Source of the DNA: Bacteroidia bacterium
GTDB lineage: Bacteria > Bacteroidota > Bacteroidia > AKYH767-A > OLB10
Direction of reading: 5' to 3'
NCBI GenBank assembly: GCA_017995075.1
Contig: JAGOJO010000005.1
Coordinates: 1 to 32,228 of the forward strand
Length of the DNA: 32,228 nt
A model generated the notes under the pieces. The model saw nothing but the letters and a program-made list of their open reading frames with translations, searched no databases and had not been told where the DNA came from. The translations under genes and the position numbers were made by a program. This document shows, in pieces, positions 6,487 to 32,228 of this stretch; within the stretch, counting starts at the first letter, position 1; each line of letters starts with the position of its first letter.

Positions 6487-8136
6487 TTAATTACAGGTAG
6501 AAGCACCATTTACAGTGTTTTCTCCAGGTAGATATATGAACTTTACACTTTCATCATAGAGGTCGCCCGATATTCTGGCAATATAAATTCCAGCAGCCTG
6601 ATTGATCAGTGGAATCGATATCGCATCTCCCGGGTTAACCATGGTTTCTATTTCAGCTATTTTTTGTCCGAGAAGATTGTACAATCCTACAAACGCCATC
6701 TGACTTACATCTTTCTTCGCTTTTATACAGATGGTATTCGACTGAACGAGAGGATTCGGATAGGCAATGATAACGGTGCTTTCACAATCTTCCGAAGTCA
6801 ATCCATTTACCTTAAACCCTGAACTGCGGTAATTGTTTACTGTATTGGAATCCTTATCTGAAATTCTGAATTCCATCACATTATTTCCATCTCCGGCACC
6901 AATTTCTGGCAATGCAATTGTTATTGTATCCATTGGTGCCAGGCTGCCGGTCCAGTTATATGCTTTCTGTAAACTGCCGTACATGCCATATTTTATCTGC
7001 ACTGATTTTACTGTATCAATTCCATTATTCTTCAGACGAACCTCCGGAATAAAGCAACGTGTATTCGCCAGACGCACCGGAGAAATGATGGAATCCAATG
7101 CGACATCGAATGCATACGGCACCGGTAAAATATGTCCGGTTGTTAACTTCAATGAATCTCTGAGTCCGTTGATCACAGAACGTACTTTTTTGATTTGTCC
7201 GGCTGTAAAAAACATCATGCATTTATCATCGGTATAATCCATGTAATTCATGTACATGTATCCCGGACTCGTAGTAGCACAATCATCCAACGCAGGAAAT
7301 ACTTTGCACCTGAACGTAGGCTGAGCCTGATTCGGGGTATCGTCCCATCCGAAATTGATTTCCTGATTGGTAAAATCCTTTCCTGTGCAGGGATTCGACG
7401 CAGGATCATCACCCCAGATATGATTCAATGACATCCAGTGTCCAACTTCATGAGAAGCGGTACGACCATAATTGTATGGTTCAACAGAAGAACCTAAACG
7501 TCCGAATGCGCGTGGACTAATCACCACTCCATCATTATTCGCCGCTGAACCCGGGTAATTGGCATAACCAAGAGCATTTCCATTCAAAGGACAAACCCAC
7601 AGATTCAGGTATTGATTTCTCGGCCAGGCATCTTGTCCCCCACTATCCGATTCATAGATGGAAGGATCAAAAATATCGTAAGATGCCTTTTTCCCTTCGC
7701 TGTGTACAATTCCTGTAGTTGCATTACCCGCAGGATCTCGTTGTGCCAATGTGAATCGCAGATAACTATCCTTCGTTAATCCTTGCCATAAAAAAGGTAT
7801 ATCAAGTGATGTGGCATTCAATACTGCATAATCCTCATTCAGAACGTCTATTTGTGACTGAATCTGCTCATCACTCACTTTTCCTGCTCCATTGTAGGAG
7901 ATAACATGTACTACTACCGGAATGACAACGACTGAATCGACCGATGCAAATTGAAAACTTTGTCCGGTCTTATTGATAGCAGACTCAAATCGCTCTTTAT
8001 AGCCCGGCTCATGCAAACATTTATACTCATGCCACTCGGTAGTCAGGCAACGTGATTCCTGTGCAATAGCGGGTACTGATAAAGAAACCAGCAAGCAATA
8101 AACAAGCAAGAAAGACTGACGGAGAGTTGGTCGCAT
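6487..8136 (-). CDS. Secreted M43-family zinc metalloprotease with CARDB-like domain and T9SS sorting domain
   Basis: A 549-residue secreted protease. A signal peptide (about 1-25, ending PAIAQ) is followed by the M43 (pappalysin/cytophagalysin) catalytic domain. Its zinc site is H229-E-x2-H233-x5-H239 in SHEVGHWMSLNH, and the Met-turn is MNYMDY at 296-301. Residues about 340-445 form a beta-rich module resembling CARDB (VRLKNNGIDTVKSV). The C-terminus holds a T9SS type A-like sorting domain (AYPNPLV at about 458, then NLLGQKIAEI and AAGIYIARI) but ends in an atypical 13-residue tail after KFIYL. The start is the ATG at 8136: an in-frame TTG at 8148 lies within the -7 promoter element and so upstream of the likely transcript start. 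It is followed after 11 nt by mqnE. Confidence 0.9.
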   Translation of the reverse strand: MRPTLRQSFLLVYCLLVSLSVPAIAQESRCLTTEWHEYKCLHEPGYKERFESAINKTGQSFQFASVDSVVVIPVVVHVISYNGAGKVSDEQIQSQIDVLNEDYAVLNATSLDIPFLWQGLTKDSYLRFTLAQRDPAGNATTGIVHSEGKKASYDIFDPSIYESDSGGQDAWPRNQYLNLWVCPLNGNALGYANYPGSAANNDGVVISPRAFGRLGSSVEPYNYGRTASHEVGHWMSLNHIWGDDPASNPCTGKDFTNQEINFGWDDTPNQAQPTFRCKVFPALDDCATTSPGYMYMNYMDYTDDKCMMFFTAGQIKKVRSVINGLRDSLKLTTGHILPVPYAFDVALDSIISPVRLANTRCFIPEVRLKNNGIDTVKSVQIKYGMYGSLQKAYNWTGSLAPMDTITIALPEIGAGDGNNVMEFRISDKDSNTVNNYRSSGFKVNGLTSEDCESTVIIAYPNPLVQSNTICIKAKKDVSQMAFVGLYNLLGQKIAEIETMVNPGDAISIPLINQAAGIYIARISGDLYDESVKFIYLPGENTVNGASTCN

Positions 8137-8145
8137 AGATATTTG

Positions 8146-8176
8146 CAAAATTAGGCAATTAGGGTCTTCAATGCAA
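8146..8176 (-). promoter_or_regulatory. Bacteroidota-type promoter for the 549-residue M43 protease
   Basis: On the minus strand, TTG (8176-8174), 20 nt of spacer and TAATTTTG (8153-8146) match the consensus TTTG-N19-21-TAnnTTTG closely. The -7 box ends only 9 nt before the ATG at 8136, so the leader must be very short. This decides the start codon of that gene and separates it from the terminator just upstream. Confidence 0.65.
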
Positions 8177-8194
8177 TGAATAAAGCTGTATAAA

Positions 8195-8226
8195 ACAGAA
8201 AGGCCACCCGAAGGCAGCCTTTCTGT
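8195..8226 (-). terminator. Intrinsic terminator after the 442-residue M43 protease
   Basis: A 10-bp perfect stem, ACAGAAAGGC paired with GCCTTTCTGT (8195-8204 and 8217-8226), is followed on the minus strand by TTTTAT. It begins 15 nt past the stop of the protease that ends at 8242. It insulates that gene from the next protease gene, which has its own promoter at 8146-8176. Confidence 0.8.
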
Positions 8227-8241
8227 ATAGTTTGGTAATTA

Positions 8242-9570
8242 TTAGCGGGAAATCTGGAATTTAACCAGTTTTTTACCGAAATCATTATTTATCTCTACGA
8301 AATAGAAGCCCTGACTAATTGAAGTCAGATCCAACTCATATTCGCCATCAGCATTGAAGGATTTGATAGTAGATGTAACTTCAGCTCCTAGCATATTGAG
8401 GATGCGGAAGGTAACATCGCTAGTACCCTGCTGCTTACCAATCGAAACACGTATAATATCATTAGCCGGATTCGGATACAGGTTTACACTCAAAGTAGCC
8501 GTATTTTCATTCAATCCAACCGGAGTACAGGCAATTGAATTACGCTGACTCACACGCATTGGAGAGTTAGTTAAAACAGTCACCATACGTGTTTTCTGAT
8601 TCTCTGTAAACATATTCAGACAGTCGTCATCGCAATAGTCCATGTAATTCATGAACTGGTCACCATTAGGCGCATTACCTGTACAATTAGAAGTACTAGG
8701 GAATGTCGGACAGAAGAAATTAGATGTTTGCTGTGTAGGGGTATCTGTGCAGTAATCAGTAGCACAGTTATTATCACCCCAAATATGACGTAAGCCTAAC
8801 CAGTGACCTACTTCGTGAGTTAGTGTGCGGCCTTTGTTGTACGAAGGGTCAAGTTGACCAACACGTCCACAAGCGCGGTACCAAACAACAACTCCATCAG
8901 TGGTAGCAGTACCGAAATTACCTGTTACACCGCTCAATCCGCTTCCTGCAGGGAAAGTAGCATGTCCAAGTAACTGGAAACCGGAAGTGGTATAATCCGG
9001 CACAACCCAGATGTTCAGGTAGTTATTCGTGTTCCAGATAGTAGCCGGTTTGATGGTTGCATCGATGTATGTTTGAGTATACGGTGGTGCAGAAAATCCG
9101 AGTGTATTTCTGTTGACACGATCAATACCGGTGCTGGTATTTCCGCTCGGGTCACGTTGCGCCATGCAGAACTGAATTTCGCAATCAGCAGCAGCTCCGG
9201 CAAAAACACTTGGAGTATTGGTAGTATCAGCATTTAAACGGCGATAATCTTCATTAAGTACAGCCAACTGAGACAATACTTGTGCATCGCTGATATTATA
9301 AGAAACACCGACATTGCTGCCATTGTGAATTACGTGGAAAACAATAGGAATAGTGTATACTGTTTGTACGCCGCTTCCTTTTGCATTGGCACGCTCTTCC
9401 ATTTGTTTCTGAATCAGTGGTTGAAGCCATTGCTCATATTCATCAGGTAAGATTCCGGATCCACAGGTGCGTTGCATCCTGGTTTGGTTACCGGTAGATT
9501 GACCTTGCTGGGCTGTCACTGCCGAAGTCATACAGGCCACAGTTAAGATTGAAAGTAAAACTTTCTTCAT
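8242..9570 (-). CDS. Secreted M43-family zinc metalloprotease with T9SS sorting domain (compact form)
   Basis: A 442-residue protein. The signal peptide MKKVLLSILTVACMTSAVTA is followed by a short pro-region with the RTCG motif seen in this family. The M43 catalytic domain has its zinc site at H252-E253-x2-H256-x5-H262 (THEVGHWLGLRHIWGD), paired cysteines after the site and a Met-turn MNYMDYCDDDC at about 308. The domain is joined almost directly to a canonical T9SS type A C-terminal domain (LYPNPANDIIRV from 365, then ILNMLGAEV, ending KKLVKFQISR). It is therefore probably exported through Sec and T9SS and surface-anchored or released. It lacks the extra modules of its two neighbours, so it is the minimal architecture of the cluster. 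It has its own terminator. Confidence 0.93.
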   Translation of the reverse strand: MKKVLLSILTVACMTSAVTAQQGQSTGNQTRMQRTCGSGILPDEYEQWLQPLIQKQMEERANAKGSGVQTVYTIPIVFHVIHNGSNVGVSYNISDAQVLSQLAVLNEDYRRLNADTTNTPSVFAGAAADCEIQFCMAQRDPSGNTSTGIDRVNRNTLGFSAPPYTQTYIDATIKPATIWNTNNYLNIWVVPDYTTSGFQLLGHATFPAGSGLSGVTGNFGTATTDGVVVWYRACGRVGQLDPSYNKGRTLTHEVGHWLGLRHIWGDNNCATDYCTDTPTQQTSNFFCPTFPSTSNCTGNAPNGDQFMNYMDYCDDDCLNMFTENQKTRMVTVLTNSPMRVSQRNSIACTPVGLNENTATLSVNLYPNPANDIIRVSIGKQQGTSDVTFRILNMLGAEVTSTIKSFNADGEYELDLTSISQGFYFVEINNDFGKKLVKFQISR

Positions 9571-12321: not shown

Positions 12322-14262
12322 ATGAAGAAAAATTACATGGCAGCACTTGCCTTGTCATTCACCATGATGACAGGAGCAATGGCACAAAACACAAGAAATT
12401 GTGGCACGATGCATCACCTGCATGAGATGGAACAAAATGATCCTACTCTTCAGGCAAGAATGCAGAACATTGAGCGTGAAACGGAACAATGGATTCAGAC
12501 AAACAATAACAATGCTAACAAAGCAGCAGCAGTTATTACTATTCCGGTTGTAGTACACGTTGTATACAACACGGCGTCACAGAACATCAGCGATGCGCAA
12601 ATCAATTCACAGATTGCTATCCTGAACCAGGATTTCCGTAAACTGAATGCAGATATCTCATTAGTACCATCTGTATTTACTGCCTTGACTGCTGATTGCG
12701 AGTTGGAGTTTTGCCTGGCGAAACGTGACCCAAGCGGTAATGCTACAAACGGTATTGTTCGTAAATCCACCACCGTTACTTCGTTTTCGTCTAACGATAA
12801 CATCAAAAGAAGCGCTAACGGTGGATCGGATGCTTGGAACACTTCACAATACCTGAACATCTGGGTTGGGCCTCTTGGTGGTGGATTATTGGGTTATGCC
12901 CAATTCCCTGGTGGAACTGCTTCTACAGATGGTGTAGTAATTCTTCACAGTGCATTCGGTAACACAGGTACTGCGGCAGCTCCTTTCAACAAAGGACGTA
13001 CTGCAACTCATGAAATCGGTCACTGGTTGAACCTCCGTCATATCTGGGGTGATGCTACTTGCGGTAATGATCAGGTAACGGATACACCGACACAACAAAC
13101 TTCAAATTTCGGATGTCCTTCCTTCCCACATGTTACATGTAGCAATGGTCCAAACGGTGATATGTTCATGAACTACATGGATTACACCGATGATGCCTGT
13201 ATGTATATGTTCACTGCAGGTCAAAAAGCCAGAATGCTTGCTGCAGTAAACACCAATCGTCCGGGCTTGTTGACATCACAAGGTTGTGTTCCTCCATCTG
13301 GTGGATCTTCTTGTGGAACGCCAACATCATTGACTACATCTTCCATCTTCCAGACATCTGCTACTGTAACCTGGGCTGCTGTATCTGGTGCATTGTCGTA
13401 TAACATCCAGTATCGAGTAAATGGAACAACGGCATGGACAACTACAACCAGCACAACTAATTCGAAAAGTATTTCCGGTTTAGTTGCTTCAACTATTTAT
13501 CAGTATCAAGTACAAGCAGTATGCAGTGCGGCAACAAGTACCTACTCTTCTGTAGCTACATTCACAACTGTTTCTCCATCATGTACTGACGCTTATGAAT
13601 CAAATAACAGCCGTAATGCAGCAAAAATCATATCTGTAAACACTAATATTTCAGCAAAGATTGGTTCAGGAACTGATAAGGACTGGTTCAAGTTCACAAC
13701 GGTAGCTGGTGCAACCAATATCAAAGCAGTATTGGATCTGTTGCCTGCCGATTATGATCTGAAACTCTATAATTCGAATGGAACTCAACTTGCAGTTTCA
13801 CAACTCGGTGGAACTTCAACTGAGAACATTATCAGAAACACTGCTACGGCTGCTTCCTACTTTGTTCAGGTTTATCCATACAGCAGCACTGGATTTAACT
13901 CCAGCGTTTGCTACCGTCTGCGCGTAAATGCATCTGCATCTACTTTCCGTGATGGTGTTGGAACAGAGTATACTGAAGGAAATATCAATCCTGCTAAAAT
14001 GGAAGCGATTGATGGAATCAGTTTATATCCTAATCCAACAAGCGACGTGATTAACCTGAGCTTCTTCCAGGAGTATGATGGTTCAATCTACACTGAAGTA
14101 GTAGATATCATGGGTAAAGTAGTGTACTCAGCTAATTACGGTGCTGTTGAAGGATTCAACAAAACTGAAATCAGCACTTCAAATATGTCGAATGGTATTT
14201 ACTTCCTGCGTATTGTTCAGGATGAAATGAGTATTGTTCGCAAATTTGTAGTGAAACACTAA
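12322..14262 (+). CDS. Secreted M43-family zinc metalloprotease with FN3, PPC and T9SS sorting domains
   Basis: A 646-residue multi-domain secreted protease. A signal peptide (1-21, ending GAMAQ) is followed by a short pro-region with the RNCGTMHHL motif and the M43 catalytic domain. The zinc site is H230-E-x2-H234-x5-H240 ([16 protein letters not shown]), and the Met-turn [11 protein letters not shown] starts at 283. A fibronectin type III domain follows at about 333-416 ([18 protein letters not shown] ... YQYQVQAVC). Next comes a PPC (bacterial pre-peptidase C-terminal) domain at about 421-537 ([31 protein letters not shown]). The T9SS type A sorting domain is at about 567-646 ([31 protein letters not shown], ending KFVVKH). 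It is the largest of three local M43 paralogs. It has its own promoter and terminator. Confidence 0.94.
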
Positions 14263-20738: not shown

Positions 20739-21248
20739 ATGATAAAACTACTCTTATCCCTCCTCCTATTGTTAAGTCCTGCACAAAGCTTTTACAGCTT
20801 TAAAGTGAAAGATGTTGACGGCAAACCTATACAGCTCTCTGCTTACAAAGGAAAAAAAGTACTGATTGTTAATACAGCCTCTGAATGCGGCTACACACCT
20901 CAATACGCTGACCTGGAAAAATTGCATAAGCAATATGGAAGTAAACTTGTTGTTATCGCCTTCCCAGCCAATAATTTTGGTGGACAGGAACCTGGAAATA
21001 ACTCGGAGATTAAATCTTTTTGCTCTAAAAATTACGGAGTTTCATTTCCTGTAGCTTCGAAAGTATCAGTTAAAGGCAGCGACATTGATCCTTTATTCAA
21101 GTGGCTTTGTGAACAGGAGAATCCTGATTTCAAAGGCGATATTAACTGGAACTTTGAAAAGTTTCTGCTCGATGAAAATGGAAAACTGATCCATCGTTTT
21201 CGTTCTAAAGTAAAACCACTCGATCCAGCTATCACCGGAGCACTCTAA
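20739..21248 (+). CDS. Glutathione-peroxidase-like thiol peroxidase, exported
   Basis: A 169-residue thioredoxin-fold peroxidase. An N-terminal hydrophobic stretch (MIKLLLSLLLLLSPAQS, 1-17) looks like a signal peptide, so it probably acts in the periplasm. The catalytic set is present: peroxidatic C50 in NTASECGYTPQY, Q83 in FPANNFGGQEPG, and W137/N138 in INWNFEKFLLDENGKLIHRF. C95 (SFCSKNYGVSFPV) sits where atypical 2-Cys, thioredoxin-dependent family members have the resolving cysteine, so glutathione is unlikely to be the reductant. It follows the MoxR-like gene by 34 nt on the same strand without a visible promoter. Its TAA overlaps the TAG of the convergent response regulator (21245-21248). 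Confidence 0.92.
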   Translation: MIKLLLSLLLLLSPAQSFYSFKVKDVDGKPIQLSAYKGKKVLIVNTASECGYTPQYADLEKLHKQYGSKLVVIAFPANNFGGQEPGNNSEIKSFCSKNYGVSFPVASKVSVKGSDIDPLFKWLCEQENPDFKGDINWNFEKFLLDENGKLIHRFRSKVKPLDPAITGAL

Positions 21249-21940
21249 GCACTCTTGTTCACAAGTAGACGTACTCCCTTTCCATGCAGTGAAACAATTT
21301 CAATCTGAGGATCCTTCTTCAGGTATTTGCGGATACGGGTAATAAAAACATCCATACTGCGACCATTAAAATAGTTATCATCACCCCAAATCAGCTTCAA
21401 AGCTTTCTGACGGGGAAGGAGATCATTTTCGTGAAGGCATAAGAGACGAAGCAGATCAGCTTCCTTCGGACTCAGTTGCACCACTTCTTCCCCGTCACTT
21501 ATTTTTCGAAGTTTATAATCGAATTTATAAATACCGATTTCAAAATCTGTTTTATCCTCCAGTTCTGAGGAGCCCATGCTACGGCGAAGGACCGTTTGAA
21601 TTTTATGTAATAGCACTTCAGTATCGAACGGTTTGGTAAGATAATCATCACCACCAGCACGATAACCGGTCAGCATATCTTCTTTCATTCCCTTTGCAGT
21701 CAGAAAGAAAATTGGTGTTTTTTTATCCAACTCCCTGATTTGCTTCGCCAGTGTAAAACCATCTACTTTTGGCATCATTACATCCAGCACAATCAGGTCA
21801 TATCCACCTTTCGTAAATGCCTGCAATCCGGCCTGGCCATCTCTAACCAATTCCACCTGATATGAATTCAACTCAAGGAAATTTTTCATCACATTTCCGA
21901 AATTCATATCATCTTCAACTAACAGGATCTTTGCATTCAT
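21245..21940 (-). CDS. OmpR/PhoB-family response regulator, partner of the adjacent kinase
   Basis: A 231-residue regulator. The receiver domain has D10/D11, phospho-acceptor D53 (IVLDVMMP), T81 (FFLTAKG) and K103 (LTKPF). The winged-helix DNA-binding domain (about 130-231) includes LSPKEADLLRLLCLHENDLLPR and the recognition helix NGRSMDVFITRIRKYLKKD, and ends with the LHGKGVRLLV wing. The sequence style (WGDDNYFNGRSMDVF) resembles RprY-type regulators of Bacteroidota. It lies 4 nt after the histidine kinase stop, so the pair is one operon read from the kinase promoter. Four direct repeats upstream of the kinase (23661-23698) are the likely binding site, which implies autoregulation. Confidence 0.94.
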   Translation of the reverse strand: MNAKILLVEDDMNFGNVMKNFLELNSYQVELVRDGQAGLQAFTKGGYDLIVLDVMMPKVDGFTLAKQIRELDKKTPIFFLTAKGMKEDMLTGYRAGGDDYLTKPFDTEVLLHKIQTVLRRSMGSSELEDKTDFEIGIYKFDYKLRKISDGEEVVQLSPKEADLLRLLCLHENDLLPRQKALKLIWGDDNYFNGRSMDVFITRIRKYLKKDPQIEIVSLHGKGVRLLVNKSA

Positions 21941-21944
21941 TGTA

Positions 21945-23621
21945 TTACTGGTTTTGTTTTTTTAATGGTAGATTAATAGTAAATGTGCTACCTTTTAATG
22001 GTTCACTTTCAACTTCTATTGTTCCCTGATGCTCCGTCAAAATGGCTTTAACATAACTTAACCCGAGTCCAAAACCTTTGACATCATGAATATTTCCGGA
22101 TGTTGCTCTGTAAAATGTATCAAAAATTTTCTTCAGCACTTCTTTCGACATCCCAATACCTTTATCGCTGATTTCAATAATTACTGATTCAGGTTGGTTA
22201 TAAACGTTCACCGTAATCACCGGACTTTCGGGACTATATTTATTGGCATTATCAAGAATATTGATAAGCACATTTAATATATGAGTTGGATCTGCAAGTA
22301 TGGTGGTTTGAACTGCTTCATTATTAACAGTAATTTTTCCTTCGCGTTGTTCAACAGTCAACGACATACTTGAGACCGCTGTCTCTACCAGGTCGTTAAT
22401 ATCCGTATCTTCCATTTTCAATTTCACCTCGCCTTTATCAATCTGAGCCATTTGAAGCACAGTTTCTACTTGTCGAAGCATACGTTGATTCTCATCCCTG
22501 ATAATATTGTTATAAAACTCCAGTTTTTCAGGTACCTGATAAATTCTGGGATCACGCATGGATTCATTTGCAATTGCAATTGTTGCAATAGGCGTTTTGA
22601 ATTCGTGCGTCATATTATTAATAAAGTCGTTCTTGATGTCGGCTAATTTTTTCTGGCGCAGCACCACTTTCAATGTATAGGCAAAACCCCAGATTATTAA
22701 TACAGTAAATGCAATTGAAAACAGGAGTACGACCCAAATTCCATCAAGCAGATAATTCAGTTTATCGCTAAAGGAGATCGATAGCATTTCATTTCTTTTA
22801 AATACGTCATTAGGGAACAACATGAGTTTATAGTCGCTGTACTTCAACATAACTGAATCAGCATTTTCCGATAAATGCAACCACTCCTTCCCTTTCTCTT
22901 TATATACTCCGTATGAAAAATTCAGATTTAATCCCCTGTTGAACAACTCCCGGCGAATAATTGAATCTAGACTTTCTTTACTGATCCGGTTAAAAATGTT
23001 TCCGGAAGGATCTACAATCTGAAAAGTAAGTTTCTGCATCATCGAATTCAGCTTTTTAAGTCTCGACTGCATCCTTTGCTGCGTCAGCTGCTCGATGGAA
23101 TCCATCATCGATGAACTCTGATCAAATTTGAAAGCATACACTTCCTTCTGTTCAATATCTTTTTCAATCCGAATATCAATGGATGAATCAACATTGAAAT
23201 ACATGCTTTCTTCGGTGGGCTTGCGGTTTCTGGCCCGTTGCCTGAAATCAAAGATGCGATTAGAGATTTCCGTTTCTATGCGCATAATTTCAGACTCAGG
23301 ATCCGGAGGTCTGGGTGGCGGCGGTGGTGGCATCGGTGGTGCGGTCGCGATGTCAGAAAGAACCGTCATCAGACTATCATCCACCATATCATGTGTAACG
23401 GAACTATCCTCCGAGGTGATGAAATTATTTACAACAATCCGGAGATTCTCGTTTTCTTCCACCTGATCCACAATATCATTTAATGCCAGCATCACCGTAC
23501 GGTCAAACTGCTGTGATTTGATTTCAAAATCATGGGTGATCCAGTAAGTCTGAAGGAATATTAACCCCAGCAGCGATACTGACATCATCAAAACTATAAA
23601 CCTGAACCTTATTTTATTCAT
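21945..23621 (-). CDS. Membrane sensor histidine kinase with a proline-rich periplasmic domain
   Basis: A 558-residue kinase. TM1 lies at about 8-27 and TM2 at about 294-316. The 265-residue periplasmic domain between them matches no sensor fold I recognise. It contains a proline tract at 95-108 (PPMPPPPPPRPPDP), then a charged, probably coiled-coil stretch (about 110-195). The cytoplasmic part has the H-box with H339 (NMTHEFKTPIATI), N-box (NILDNANKYSPESP), G1 (ISDKGIGMS), F-box and G2 (GFGLGLSYV), all intact. Overall it resembles the RprX-type kinases of Bacteroidota. An exact TAnnTTTG element ends 5 nt before the ATG, implying a nearly leaderless message. It is divergent from a secreted protein that has a similar proline tract. 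Confidence 0.93.
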   Translation of the reverse strand: MNKIRFRFIVLMMSVSLLGLIFLQTYWITHDFEIKSQQFDRTVMLALNDIVDQVEENENLRIVVNNFITSEDSSVTHDMVDDSLMTVLSDIATAPPMPPPPPPRPPDPESEIMRIETEISNRIFDFRQRARNRKPTEESMYFNVDSSIDIRIEKDIEQKEVYAFKFDQSSSMMDSIEQLTQQRMQSRLKKLNSMMQKLTFQIVDPSGNIFNRISKESLDSIIRRELFNRGLNLNFSYGVYKEKGKEWLHLSENADSVMLKYSDYKLMLFPNDVFKRNEMLSISFSDKLNYLLDGIWVVLLFSIAFTVLIIWGFAYTLKVVLRQKKLADIKNDFINNMTHEFKTPIATIAIANESMRDPRIYQVPEKLEFYNNIIRDENQRMLRQVETVLQMAQIDKGEVKLKMEDTDINDLVETAVSSMSLTVEQREGKITVNNEAVQTTILADPTHILNVLINILDNANKYSPESPVITVNVYNQPESVIIEISDKGIGMSKEVLKKIFDTFYRATSGNIHDVKGFGLGLSYVKAILTEHQGTIEVESEPLKGSTFTINLPLKKQNQ

Positions 23622-23626
23622 TACTT

Positions 23627-23634
23627 CAAAAATA
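23627..23634 (-). promoter_or_regulatory. -7 promoter element of the kinase/regulator operon
   Basis: TATTTTTG on the minus strand (23634-23627) is an exact TAnnTTTG match, 5 nt before the kinase ATG at 23621. The only TTTG upstream (23653-23650) is at a short 15-nt spacing, so the promoter may depend on an activator bound at the repeats beginning about 27 nt further upstream. Confidence 0.5.
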
Positions 23635-23652: not shown

Positions 23653-23698
23653 AACAGCGCATTAACGATACATTAACCGGTGTTAACCAGCCATTAAC
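23653..23698. promoter_or_regulatory. Tandem TTAAC repeat array, likely response-regulator operator
   Basis: Plus-strand hexamers ATTAAC (23661-23666), ATTAAC (23672-23677), GTTAAC (23682-23687) and ATTAAC (23693-23698) start 11, 10 and 11 bp apart. A degenerate fifth copy has its AAC core at 23653-23655. Direct repeats about one helical turn apart are the standard binding pattern of OmpR/PhoB-family regulators. The array sits midway between the -7 elements of the divergent kinase operon and the secreted-protein gene, and so could control both. The direct observation is the repeats; the bound protein is inferred. Confidence 0.65.
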
Positions 23699-23720: not shown

Positions 23721-23728
23721 TATCCTTG
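23721..23728 (+). promoter_or_regulatory. Possible -7 element of the secreted proline-rich protein gene
   Basis: TATCCTTG matches TAnnTTTG at all but one defined position, 19 nt before the ATG at 23748. There is no TTTG box at the normal distance; instead the TTAAC repeats end 22 nt upstream, as expected for an activator-dependent promoter. Confidence 0.45.
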
Positions 23729-23747
23729 CACTATAAAACAACATCAA

Positions 23748-24353
23748 ATGAAAACATTCCATCTATTATTGGGCGGGTTTCTGATGGCAGGAAGCGCAAC
23801 TACAGCTCAAACTCCGGATTCAGTATCGTCAAAATCAGGGAAAATCAGTCTGACTATTGTTCGGGAGGAAAACGGAAAAAAAACGGTCATCGATACCAGC
23901 TTTAACCTTTCAGATGAAAACCAATACAGGGCATTTCTGGAGCAAAACAATATAAAAATCGAAAATGATGCCTCCGGGAAAAGTGGCCAGCGTATCATGA
24001 AATTCAGATACGATATGCCTGAAAAAAGGGATGAAAAGGAAATTGTAATTGAAATGCCTGCTTCACCCGGGGACCCTCCTATGCCGCCTTTGCCACCAAT
24101 GCCTCCTTTGCCACCCATGAATCGGATGGAAATAGAATCAGAGAATGGCGATGTTCAAGTGTATACCTACCGAATTGATGATGATAAAATGGATCAGGAT
24201 ATTGAAGCACTGGTAAAAATCATGAGTGAGGATGGTGACCGAATGAAAATAAAGAAAGAAATCCGAAGAATTGAAATGCGTAGTGACGAGCCTAAAAAAC
24301 GTTCAAAGCATAAAAAGGCTAAACGAAAAATTATCATAATTGAAGAAGCTTAA
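23748..24353 (+). CDS. Secreted proline-rich, highly charged protein of unknown function
   Basis: A 201-residue protein I do not recognise. The signal peptide is at 1-20 (MKTFHLLLGGFLMAGSATTA), so the mature part should be periplasmic or outside. Residues 31-60 (GKISLTIVREENGKKTVIDT) look like a beta-rich module with a phrase common in small Bacteroidota exported proteins. Residues 104-124 form a proline tract (PPMPPLPPMPPLPPM) encoded by an 18-bp tandem repeat. Then come an acidic stretch (125-165) and a strongly basic tail (165-196, KKRSKHKKAKRK). It is divergent from the kinase/regulator operon, with operator-like repeats between, and has its own terminator. The layout resembles cpxP beside cpxRA, so an accessory or feedback role is plausible, but no CpxP motif is visible. 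Confidence 0.75.
   Translation: MKTFHLLLGGFLMAGSATTAQTPDSVSSKSGKISLTIVREENGKKTVIDTSFNLSDENQYRAFLEQNNIKIENDASGKSGQRIMKFRYDMPEKRDEKEIVIEMPASPGDPPMPPLPPMPPLPPMNRMEIESENGDVQVYTYRIDDDKMDQDIEALVKIMSEDGDRMKIKKEIRRIEMRSDEPKKRSKHKKAKRKIIIIEEA
24081..24116 (+). repeat. 18-bp tandem repeat encoding MPPLPP twice
   Basis: ATGCCGCCTTTGCCACCA (24081-24098) is followed directly by ATGCCTCCTTTGCCACCC (24099-24116), two copies with two silent differences. This creates the proline tract of the secreted protein, and such a repeat could change length by slippage in units of six residues. Confidence 0.85.
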
Positions 24354-30880: not shown

Positions 30881-30990
30881 TTGATCGATTATTTCGATGA
30901 ATTCGTCAATCTACCCGTAGAGTTGGGCGAAAAATTATTATTCGGGGTTAATATGTTGTTAATGTCTGCGTTTTTGATTTAACCATAACC

Positions 30991-30998
30991 TACTTTTG
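30991..30998 (+). promoter_or_regulatory. -7 promoter element for the DUF5916 protein gene
   Basis: TACTTTTG is an exact TAnnTTTG match, 13 nt before the ATG at 31012. The nearest TTTG (30973-30976) is at a 14-nt spacing, shorter than usual. The 131-nt gap after the DUF457 gene shows no clear terminator hairpin. Confidence 0.5.
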
Positions 30999-31011: not shown

Positions 31012-32228
31012 ATGTTGAGAACCTGCTTATTACTTTGCTGTCTGCTCTATTCGCTTTGCGGATTGTGTTCAACGGATGCTGATACCTTGAGAAAGGCAAC
31101 AGCCCTCCGAGTCGTTCAACCACCCCGCATAGATGGCAAACTCAATGAGAGCGAATGGATGCTCGCCACTCCAACCGGAGATTTTACCCAAAGCCGGCCG
31201 GAAGAAGGAAAGAAACCCCAGCAGATTACTCAGGTTAGAGTGTTATACACTGACTTCGCTATTTATGTGGGAGCATGGTGTTATGATACCCATCCCGACA
31301 GCATCCTGAAGCAATTAGGTAAACGGGACGAATCAGATCTCAATGCCGATAATTTCTATGTAAAGGTTGATCCATACAACAATCAACAAGATGCATATCA
31401 GTTCGGAGTATATGCTTCAGGTGTACAGTTAGACTCACGCTTCAGCGATCCAACTTTTGATGCAGTTTGGAATTCCGAAGTGAGCTTCGACGAAAAAGGC
31501 TGGTATGCAGAGATCGAAATTCCTTACAGTGCTATTCGTTTCCCTGATTCAGAAATACAAAAGTGGGGACTTCAATTCACCCGCTATATTCGCCGTACCA
31601 GAGAATTTGATACATGGTGCTATGTACCTTCCATCGCTTCAAACCCACAGATCTACTGGGGACATTTGTACAATATTTCAAATGTCAAAACCCCGCTTCG
31701 CTTATCGATTGTCCCCTATCTCGCTGTGAATTTCAGTCACGAACCTGTTTACAATGATGATGGTGGGTATAAATACTCCGACGCATTATCCTACAGTGCC
31801 GGAGCAGATATCAAGTATGGAATCGACGATCGCTTTACTCTTGATATGACCTTGCTACCTGATTTCGGACAAGTACAATCAGATCAACTCGTAAAAAACC
31901 TAAGTTACCGGGAAGTAGTTTATGATGAAAACCGACCTTTTTTCAAGGAAGCCATAGAACTATTCAGCAAAGGAAATCTTTTCTATTCACGGCGAATTGG
32001 TAAAACACCTTCCGGATTTTATTCTGCGTTTGACGAAGTTGGGCCCGATGAAAAACTGGAAGACAATCCATCGAAAGTGAAGTTACTTAACGCACTTAAG
32101 ATTTCCGGAAGGACGGATCATGGACTGGGAATTGGATTTTTTAATGCAGTAACCGATAATGCTTACGCAACAATAAAAACCGGCGACAACGGCACAAGGA
32201 AAGTACTTACAGAGCCATTCACCAACTT
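31012..32228 (+). CDS. CBM9-like/DUF5916 secreted or outer-membrane protein, N-terminal part (runs off right edge)
   Basis: The frame is open from the ATG at 31012 to the window end (405 codons), with the C-terminus missing. A signal peptide is likely (1-19, MLRTCLLLCCLLYSLCGLC). Residues about 35-200 form a carbohydrate-binding family 9-like, DOMON-type beta-sandwich (PPRIDGKLNESEW, TDFAIYVGAWCYD, YAEIEIPYSAIRF). From about 215 the DUF5916 region begins (IVPYLAVNFSH, YSAGADIKYGI, LDMTLLPDFGQVQSDQ, DENRPFFKEAIELFS, LFYSRRIG), which is rich in alternating strands suggestive of an outer-membrane beta-barrel. The pairing is common in Bacteroidota and Gemmatimonadota; the full-length proteins are about 700-900 residues. 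The function is unknown; surface binding of a glycan is a guess. Confidence 0.87.
   Translation, partial: MLRTCLLLCCLLYSLCGLCSTDADTLRKATALRVVQPPRIDGKLNESEWMLATPTGDFTQSRPEEGKKPQQITQVRVLYTDFAIYVGAWCYDTHPDSILKQLGKRDESDLNADNFYVKVDPYNNQQDAYQFGVYASGVQLDSRFSDPTFDAVWNSEVSFDEKGWYAEIEIPYSAIRFPDSEIQKWGLQFTRYIRRTREFDTWCYVPSIASNPQIYWGHLYNISNVKTPLRLSIVPYLAVNFSHEPVYNDDGGYKYSDALSYSAGADIKYGIDDRFTLDMTLLPDFGQVQSDQLVKNLSYREVVYDENRPFFKEAIELFSKGNLFYSRRIGKTPSGFYSAFDEVGPDEKLEDNPSKVKLLNALKISGRTDHGLGIGFFNAVTDNAYATIKTGDNGTRKVLTEPFTN

Follow-up and report, generated by a model that had tools for sequence, protein, structure and literature searches.

The described systems that come closest to the locus studied here are CpxRA-CpxP of Escherichia coli, Vibrio and Pseudomonas, RprXY of Bacteroides fragilis (with RprY of Porphyromonas gingivalis) and the PhoB/PhoP regulators. 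OmpR-family proteins bind direct repeats head to tail, and the pho boxes of Bacillus PhoP are tandem TTAACA-like repeats. Cpx targets include DegP/HtrA, Dsb and peptidyl-prolyl isomerase together with the divergent exported protein CpxP (PMC6737893), and CpxR is reported to act independently of the orientation of its sites (PMC5063474). The Bacteroidota −7 box has the consensus TAnnTTTG (cited in PMC7366714), −33 elements are difficult to discern in members of this phylum and dRNA-seq of B. thetaiotaomicron placed sensor kinases among the rare leaderless mRNAs (PMC7366714). A literature search that included RprY papers returned no DNA motif for RprY and no GTTAA motif for Bacteroidota. In the literature searched, no motif is described for the regulator branch treated here and no Cpx-like response is defined for Bacteroidota.

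The assembly of this Bacteroidia bacterium measures 3.24 Mb and is 80% complete; its contig C167 is the window, the whole stretch of 32,228 nucleotides that was analysed. A two-gene operon encoding a sensor kinase and a response regulator diverges from a secreted-protein gene, and the 126-bp gap between them holds an array of four GTTAA boxes (Table 1). Read on the plus strand, the cores are TTAAC at 23662-23666, 23673-23677, 23683-23687 and 23694-23698, spaced 11, 10 and 11 bp apart. The hexamers ATTAAC, ATTAAC, GTTAAC and ATTAAC that the sequence-only reading had placed at 23661, 23672, 23682 and 23693 were all present, and its distances of 27 nt to the −7 box of the kinase and 22 nt to that of the secreted gene held as well. 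The weak fifth core it suggested at 23653 did not stand, as AACAGC stands there and nothing in relatives corresponds to it; where relatives do carry a fifth box, it lies approximately 10 or 20 nt closer to the kinase than box 1. TTAAC-N5/6-TTAAC occurred five times in the window (three of these in the array) compared to 0.22 expected from 100 shuffles, with no single shuffle containing more than two. The array consists of tandem direct half-sites about one helical turn apart and upstream of a promoter, as in OmpR/PhoB-type operators.

Table 1. Features of the divergent kinase/secreted-gene locus and of the second operator, in window positions.
Feature	Position	Strand	Remarks
Sensor histidine kinase, 558 aa	21945..23621	−	HisKA, HATPase_c
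OmpR-family response regulator, RprY-like	21245..21940	−	Response_reg and Trans_reg_C; predicted binder of the array
Kinase operon −7 element TATTTTTG	23627..23634	−	27 nt from box 1; TAnnTTTG consensus
Four-box operator GTTAA-N6-GTTAA-N5-GTTAA-N6-GTTAA	23662..23698	−	Repeats and phylogenetic footprint
Secreted-gene −7 element TATCCTTG	23721..23728	+	22 nt from box 4; one mismatch to TAnnTTTG
Secreted 'DTTF' protein, 201 aa	23748..24353	+	Signal peptide-like start; N-terminal KxxIxIxKExxGKxxxxDTTF
Second operator GTTAA-N6-GTTAA	30947..30962	+	Same regulator class (predicted)
−7 element TACTTTTG	30991..30998	+	28 nt from nearest box of second operator
DUF5916 outer-envelope protein gene, CBM9-like N-terminus	31012..32226	+	Predicted regulon member; continues past window end

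The regulator has a receiver domain (102.4 bits) and a winged-helix Trans_reg_C domain (55.5 bits), both above gathering scores. Its best-scoring family was the RprY equivalog (NF051850), at 286.6 bits compared to a cut-off of 370, and its gene adjoins that of a sensor kinase, as rprY adjoins rprX. Scores fell below the cut-off of the CpxR model (NF008199; 106.8 compared to 341 bits) and far below that of the Bacteroidota PhoB model (NF053854; 163.2 compared to 270 bits), and the kinase scored 102.6 bits on the CpxA model (NF007007) against a cut-off of 486. The kinase has an extracytoplasmic region flanked by two membrane helices; its predicted structure is of moderate confidence only (mean pLDDT 68, pTM 0.38), with residues 67-177 disordered. 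The −7 element TATTTTTG lies 5 nt ahead of the kinase ATG, and in most relatives only some 4-9 nt lie between TAnnTTTG and the start codon. A leaderless kinase mRNA, conserved over large distances, is therefore probable. The array had also been proposed to replace the missing −33 boxes of both promoters. A search for a conserved −33 TTG found it at 22% compared to 13% in shuffles, and this argument is a weak one because the −33 element is poorly recognisable in the phylum and TTG is, if anything, mildly present.

The secreted protein of the window had no Pfam match. After the conserved DTTF motif the sequence varies and is proline-rich or charged. Longer relatives have a type IX secretion sorting tail (Por_Secre_tail) at their C-terminus; this tail is lacking from the window copy and was the only domain above cut-off in those relatives, apart from one marginal DUF3244. 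Among 27 related secreted-gene promoters, unlinked genes included, the distance from box to −7 element was exactly 22 nt in 23, and three of the other four had 33 nt, equal to 22 nt from a degenerate box. In four genomes (G005, G011, G012 and G016) the secreted gene is unlinked to the kinase and still has the exact four-box array upstream of it, in the same polarity. Since the array travels with the unlinked gene, it belongs to both genes and not just to the gap. A proline-rich PPMPPPPP-type stretch is common to the extracytoplasmic region of the kinase (residues ~93-107; window ~23300-23345) and the secreted protein (residues ~108-123; window ~24070-24120), and perhaps reflects an interaction between the two proteins, or is just a linker. 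Elsewhere in the window, positions 6487-9570 and 12322-14262 encode three large secreted metalloprotease-like proteins with apparent type IX secretion-like tails, as judged from their translations.

Relatives of the kinase were present in 51 of the 61 genomes searched, and nearly every orthologous kinase promoter examined within the order carried at least two boxes. GTTAA recurred approximately 40, 51, 61 and 72 nt ahead of the kinase start codon in relatives from the order and family. Loci in which some other gene diverges from the kinase usually retain only two or three boxes, those proximal to the kinase (e.g., L018-L021, L029, L032 and L034). Exact four-box arrays numbered 16 in 295 Bacteroidia genomes compared to one with the reversed pattern; 13 of the 16 adjoin the kinase gene, a homologous secreted-protein gene or both, two lie upstream of HtrA, and one could be assigned to neither group. 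Of 80 regulator loci from Flavobacteriaceae, Saprospiraceae, Mucilaginibacter, Maribellus and further Bacteroidia, 34 carried the full motif in the kinase-promoter region, and none was found elsewhere in the same loci (579 kb). The sequence-only reading had named a lack of conservation and of upstream enrichment as what would count against it; conservation was observed across Bacteroidia kinase promoters, supporting the proposal of OmpR/PhoB-type sites common to two divergent promoters, and upstream enrichment was observed in the form given below.

The boxes stand in two rigid geometries, a GTTAA pair followed by N27/28 and TAnnTTTG on the kinase side and, in opposite polarity, a TTAAC pair followed by N22 and TAnnTTTG on the side of the secreted gene. 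Across 61 genomes (totals are sums of the per-genome counts), the GTTAA pair at N26-29 from TAnnTTTG gave 101 matches compared to 12 for the reversed control, and the TTAAC pair at N21-23 gave 52 compared to 3. A decoy spacing of N31-34 for the GTTAA pattern was not enriched in the same genomes (7 matches compared to 8). The array had been put forward as a searchable regulon motif, and this stood for a pair at fixed distance from TAnnTTTG. The bare TTAAC-N5/6-TTAAC pair was rejected, as its 17 matches in the window's own genome compared to 28 in the reversed control make it unusable. Own-genome pairs at uppS, a MoxR gene, a serine-rich-repeat-like gene and a sigma-factor region were left uncounted, as TAnnTTTG did not stand at the required distance from them.

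The own-genome analysis consisted of pattern searches and one profile model. Within the window's genus, the kinase-polarity profile returned only the kinase promoter, htrA (C130:5525) and a site ahead of the DUF5916 gene (30947-30998) at E < 0.005; its top-ranking sites were in part also its training set. No further site of the own genome scored below E = 0.5. These three are the strong kinase-polarity sites of this genome. The DUF5916 site, which the sequence-only reading did not mention, is a second operator within the window, and orthologues of this gene in relatives sit downstream of the same motif. In L019-L021, moreover, the gene that diverges from the kinase is a homologue of the window's DUF5916 gene.

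Among the kinase-polarity matches with a downstream ORF (n = 84), 30 preceded histidine kinases, mostly orthologues and some paralogues, followed by HtrA-type proteases (10), M13 peptidases (10), MacB-like permeases (5) and DUF5916 proteins (5), with TolC, DsbD-like and DUF1573 proteins in the remainder. Targets in the opposite polarity were DUF5916 proteins (7), the secreted family, MoxR operons (5), S41 proteases, PPIC-type isomerases and DUF1573 proteins. Pfam confirmed the representatives tested (HtrA, M13, MacB, DsbD, S41, MoxR, PPIase and DUF5916). The DUF5916, M13 and DUF1573 families occurred with either polarity, depending on the species. TTAAC pairs stood at N22-23 from TAnnTTTG in MoxR-operon promoters of relatives (L198, L199, L204 and L223); the promoter of the MoxR operon in the own genome (L003) has a TTAAC pair and no good −7 box.

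Presence of the motif followed that of the regulator. The mean number of motif matches was 3.15 per genome where a close homologue of the regulator was present (E ≤ 1e-66) compared to 0.53 where it was not (one-sided Mann-Whitney P = 8e-8, the test treating genomes as independent though they are related), and control rates were 0.30 and 0.07, respectively. One genome (G052) had a regulator homologue and zero matches. In another (G002) matches were present and no regulator was found in its fragmented assembly; fragmented assemblies make up part of the genome set. The next closest regulator in the own genome (the C154 pair) is a paralogue with 47% identity, and the promoter of its kinase carries the degenerate boxes GTTAT/GTTAA/GTTAT in 11-bp steps (L097, positions 200-290). 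The operator of this paralogous system is thus probably a related one.

We consider it likely that the adjacent regulator, an RprY-like member of the OmpR family, has its operator in the array and that it serves autoregulation and a small Cpx-like envelope-stress regulon. We infer that protomers of the phosphorylated regulator would line up head to tail on the array, each occupying one GTTAA box, and would recruit RNA polymerase to the two divergent TAnnTTTG promoters. On the kinase side, where 27-28 nt separate the last GTTAA box from the −7 box, this would result in positive autoregulation of kinase and regulator; on the other side, the boxes reading TTAAC and ending exactly 22 nt before the −7 box would serve the secreted gene. 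The same two geometries would be used at htrA and the DUF5916 gene here and at M13, S41, MacB, DsbD, PPIase and MoxR genes in relatives. Upon envelope stress, the two-component system would thus induce periplasmic proteases, folding factors and the divergent exported protein, which may feed back on the kinase. An extension of this scheme, which we regard as doubtful, is that the exported protein acts as the sentinel cargo of an envelope-stress response common to the class Bacteroidia, in which the operator serves both promoters in opposite polarity, each at its own rigid spacing. Carrying a type IX tail in many species, the protein would leave the periplasm while export works; once export or folding failed, it would build up and send a signal to the kinase.

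Activation of both promoters by the array-bound regulator is, on the sequence evidence, the most economical reading. The opposite polarity of the two sides and their differing distances (27-28 compared to 22 nt) would also fit a regulator that activates one side and represses the other, leaving one promoter off while the other is on, and other PhoB/PhoP-type regulators can repress from reversed sites. We consider this split unlikely, as the −7 box is covered in neither geometry and the occurrence of DUF5916, M13 and DUF1573 genes with both polarities across species suggests that either polarity gives the same output; the orientation independence reported for CpxR (PMC5063474) points the same way. 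Alternatively, the main reader of the boxes could be the paralogous OmpR-family regulator, or the two paralogues could share them, given that the kinase promoters of paralogous pairs carry the same motif in G007, G012, G016 and G059, that the own-genome paralogue has its degenerate boxes and that it is the closest regulator after the one in the window. More than one regulator may indeed read the motif because the paralogous pair carries similar boxes; however, the most conserved and strongest site belongs to the adjacent operon, as autoregulation predicts, and matches track the adjacent regulator, and we hold this alternative to be improbable.

PhoB-type sites are likewise tandem 11-bp repeats, and TTAACATTAANTTAAC, a candidate Bacteroidota Pho box with a core similar to that of the array boxes, was found at pstS in this genome (L008; C93:2053-2068) and at PhoB-like regulator genes in relatives (L201, L202 and L217). 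The array is nevertheless very improbable as a Pho box read by PhoB: the pstS and phoB sites have a distinct, sequence-specific spacer, and we rejected this explanation on the score of the regulator against the PhoB model and on the targets, which are envelope proteases rather than phosphate genes. A chance repeat or DNA-structural element that involves no regulator would agree with the lack of enrichment of bare TTAAC pairs genome-wide, but is contradicted by the conservation, by the constant distance from the promoter element and by the controls, and is scarcely credible.

With the adjacent regulator as the reader of the array, the motif and its fixed promoter distance supply a regulon and a physiological role, both predicted, as well as a simple reporter assay for an anonymous two-component system that ranges from Flavobacteriaceae to Saprospiraceae. 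Through the two polarity-specific spacings it also becomes possible to test structurally how a single regulator bound in tandem may serve promoters on both sides.

Compared to the PhoB/PhoP pho boxes, the array shares direct repeats of a TTAAC-like core at approximately 11 bp and an OmpR-family reader; it differs in that the regulator is not PhoB by model score and the targets belong to envelope quality control, not phosphate. RprXY is the closest named regulator family by sequence and has the same gene pair, and a Maribellus regulator that passes the RprY model has a GTTAA pair at its kinase promoter. The window regulator, however, stays below the RprY cut-off, and the standard array is missing from the kinase promoters of Parabacteroides and Prevotella, classical Bacteroidales in which the regulator passes the RprY model. 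Two kinase promoters of Prevotella and Prevotellaceae (L305 and L309) show a different arrangement, GTTAA-N4-GTTAA followed by TTAAC words, perhaps a derived form of the operator in the RprXY branch. The likeness to CpxRA-CpxP extends to the two-gene kinase-regulator operon divergent from a small exported protein, to tandem pentamers about one helical turn apart (GTAAA-N4-8-GTAAA for CpxR, GTTAA-N5/6-GTTAA here), to the use of sites in both orientations and to a predicted regulon of periplasmic proteases and folding factors that includes the divergent exported gene. Unlike Cpx, the locus has a different core sequence, Bacteroidota-type promoters with a fixed spacing of 22 or 27-28 bp, and an exported protein without an LTXXQ/CpxP domain whose relatives carry a type IX secretion tail. 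As the proteins fall outside the CpxR, CpxA and CpxP families, the predicted system is best described as one that works like Cpx rather than one that is Cpx.
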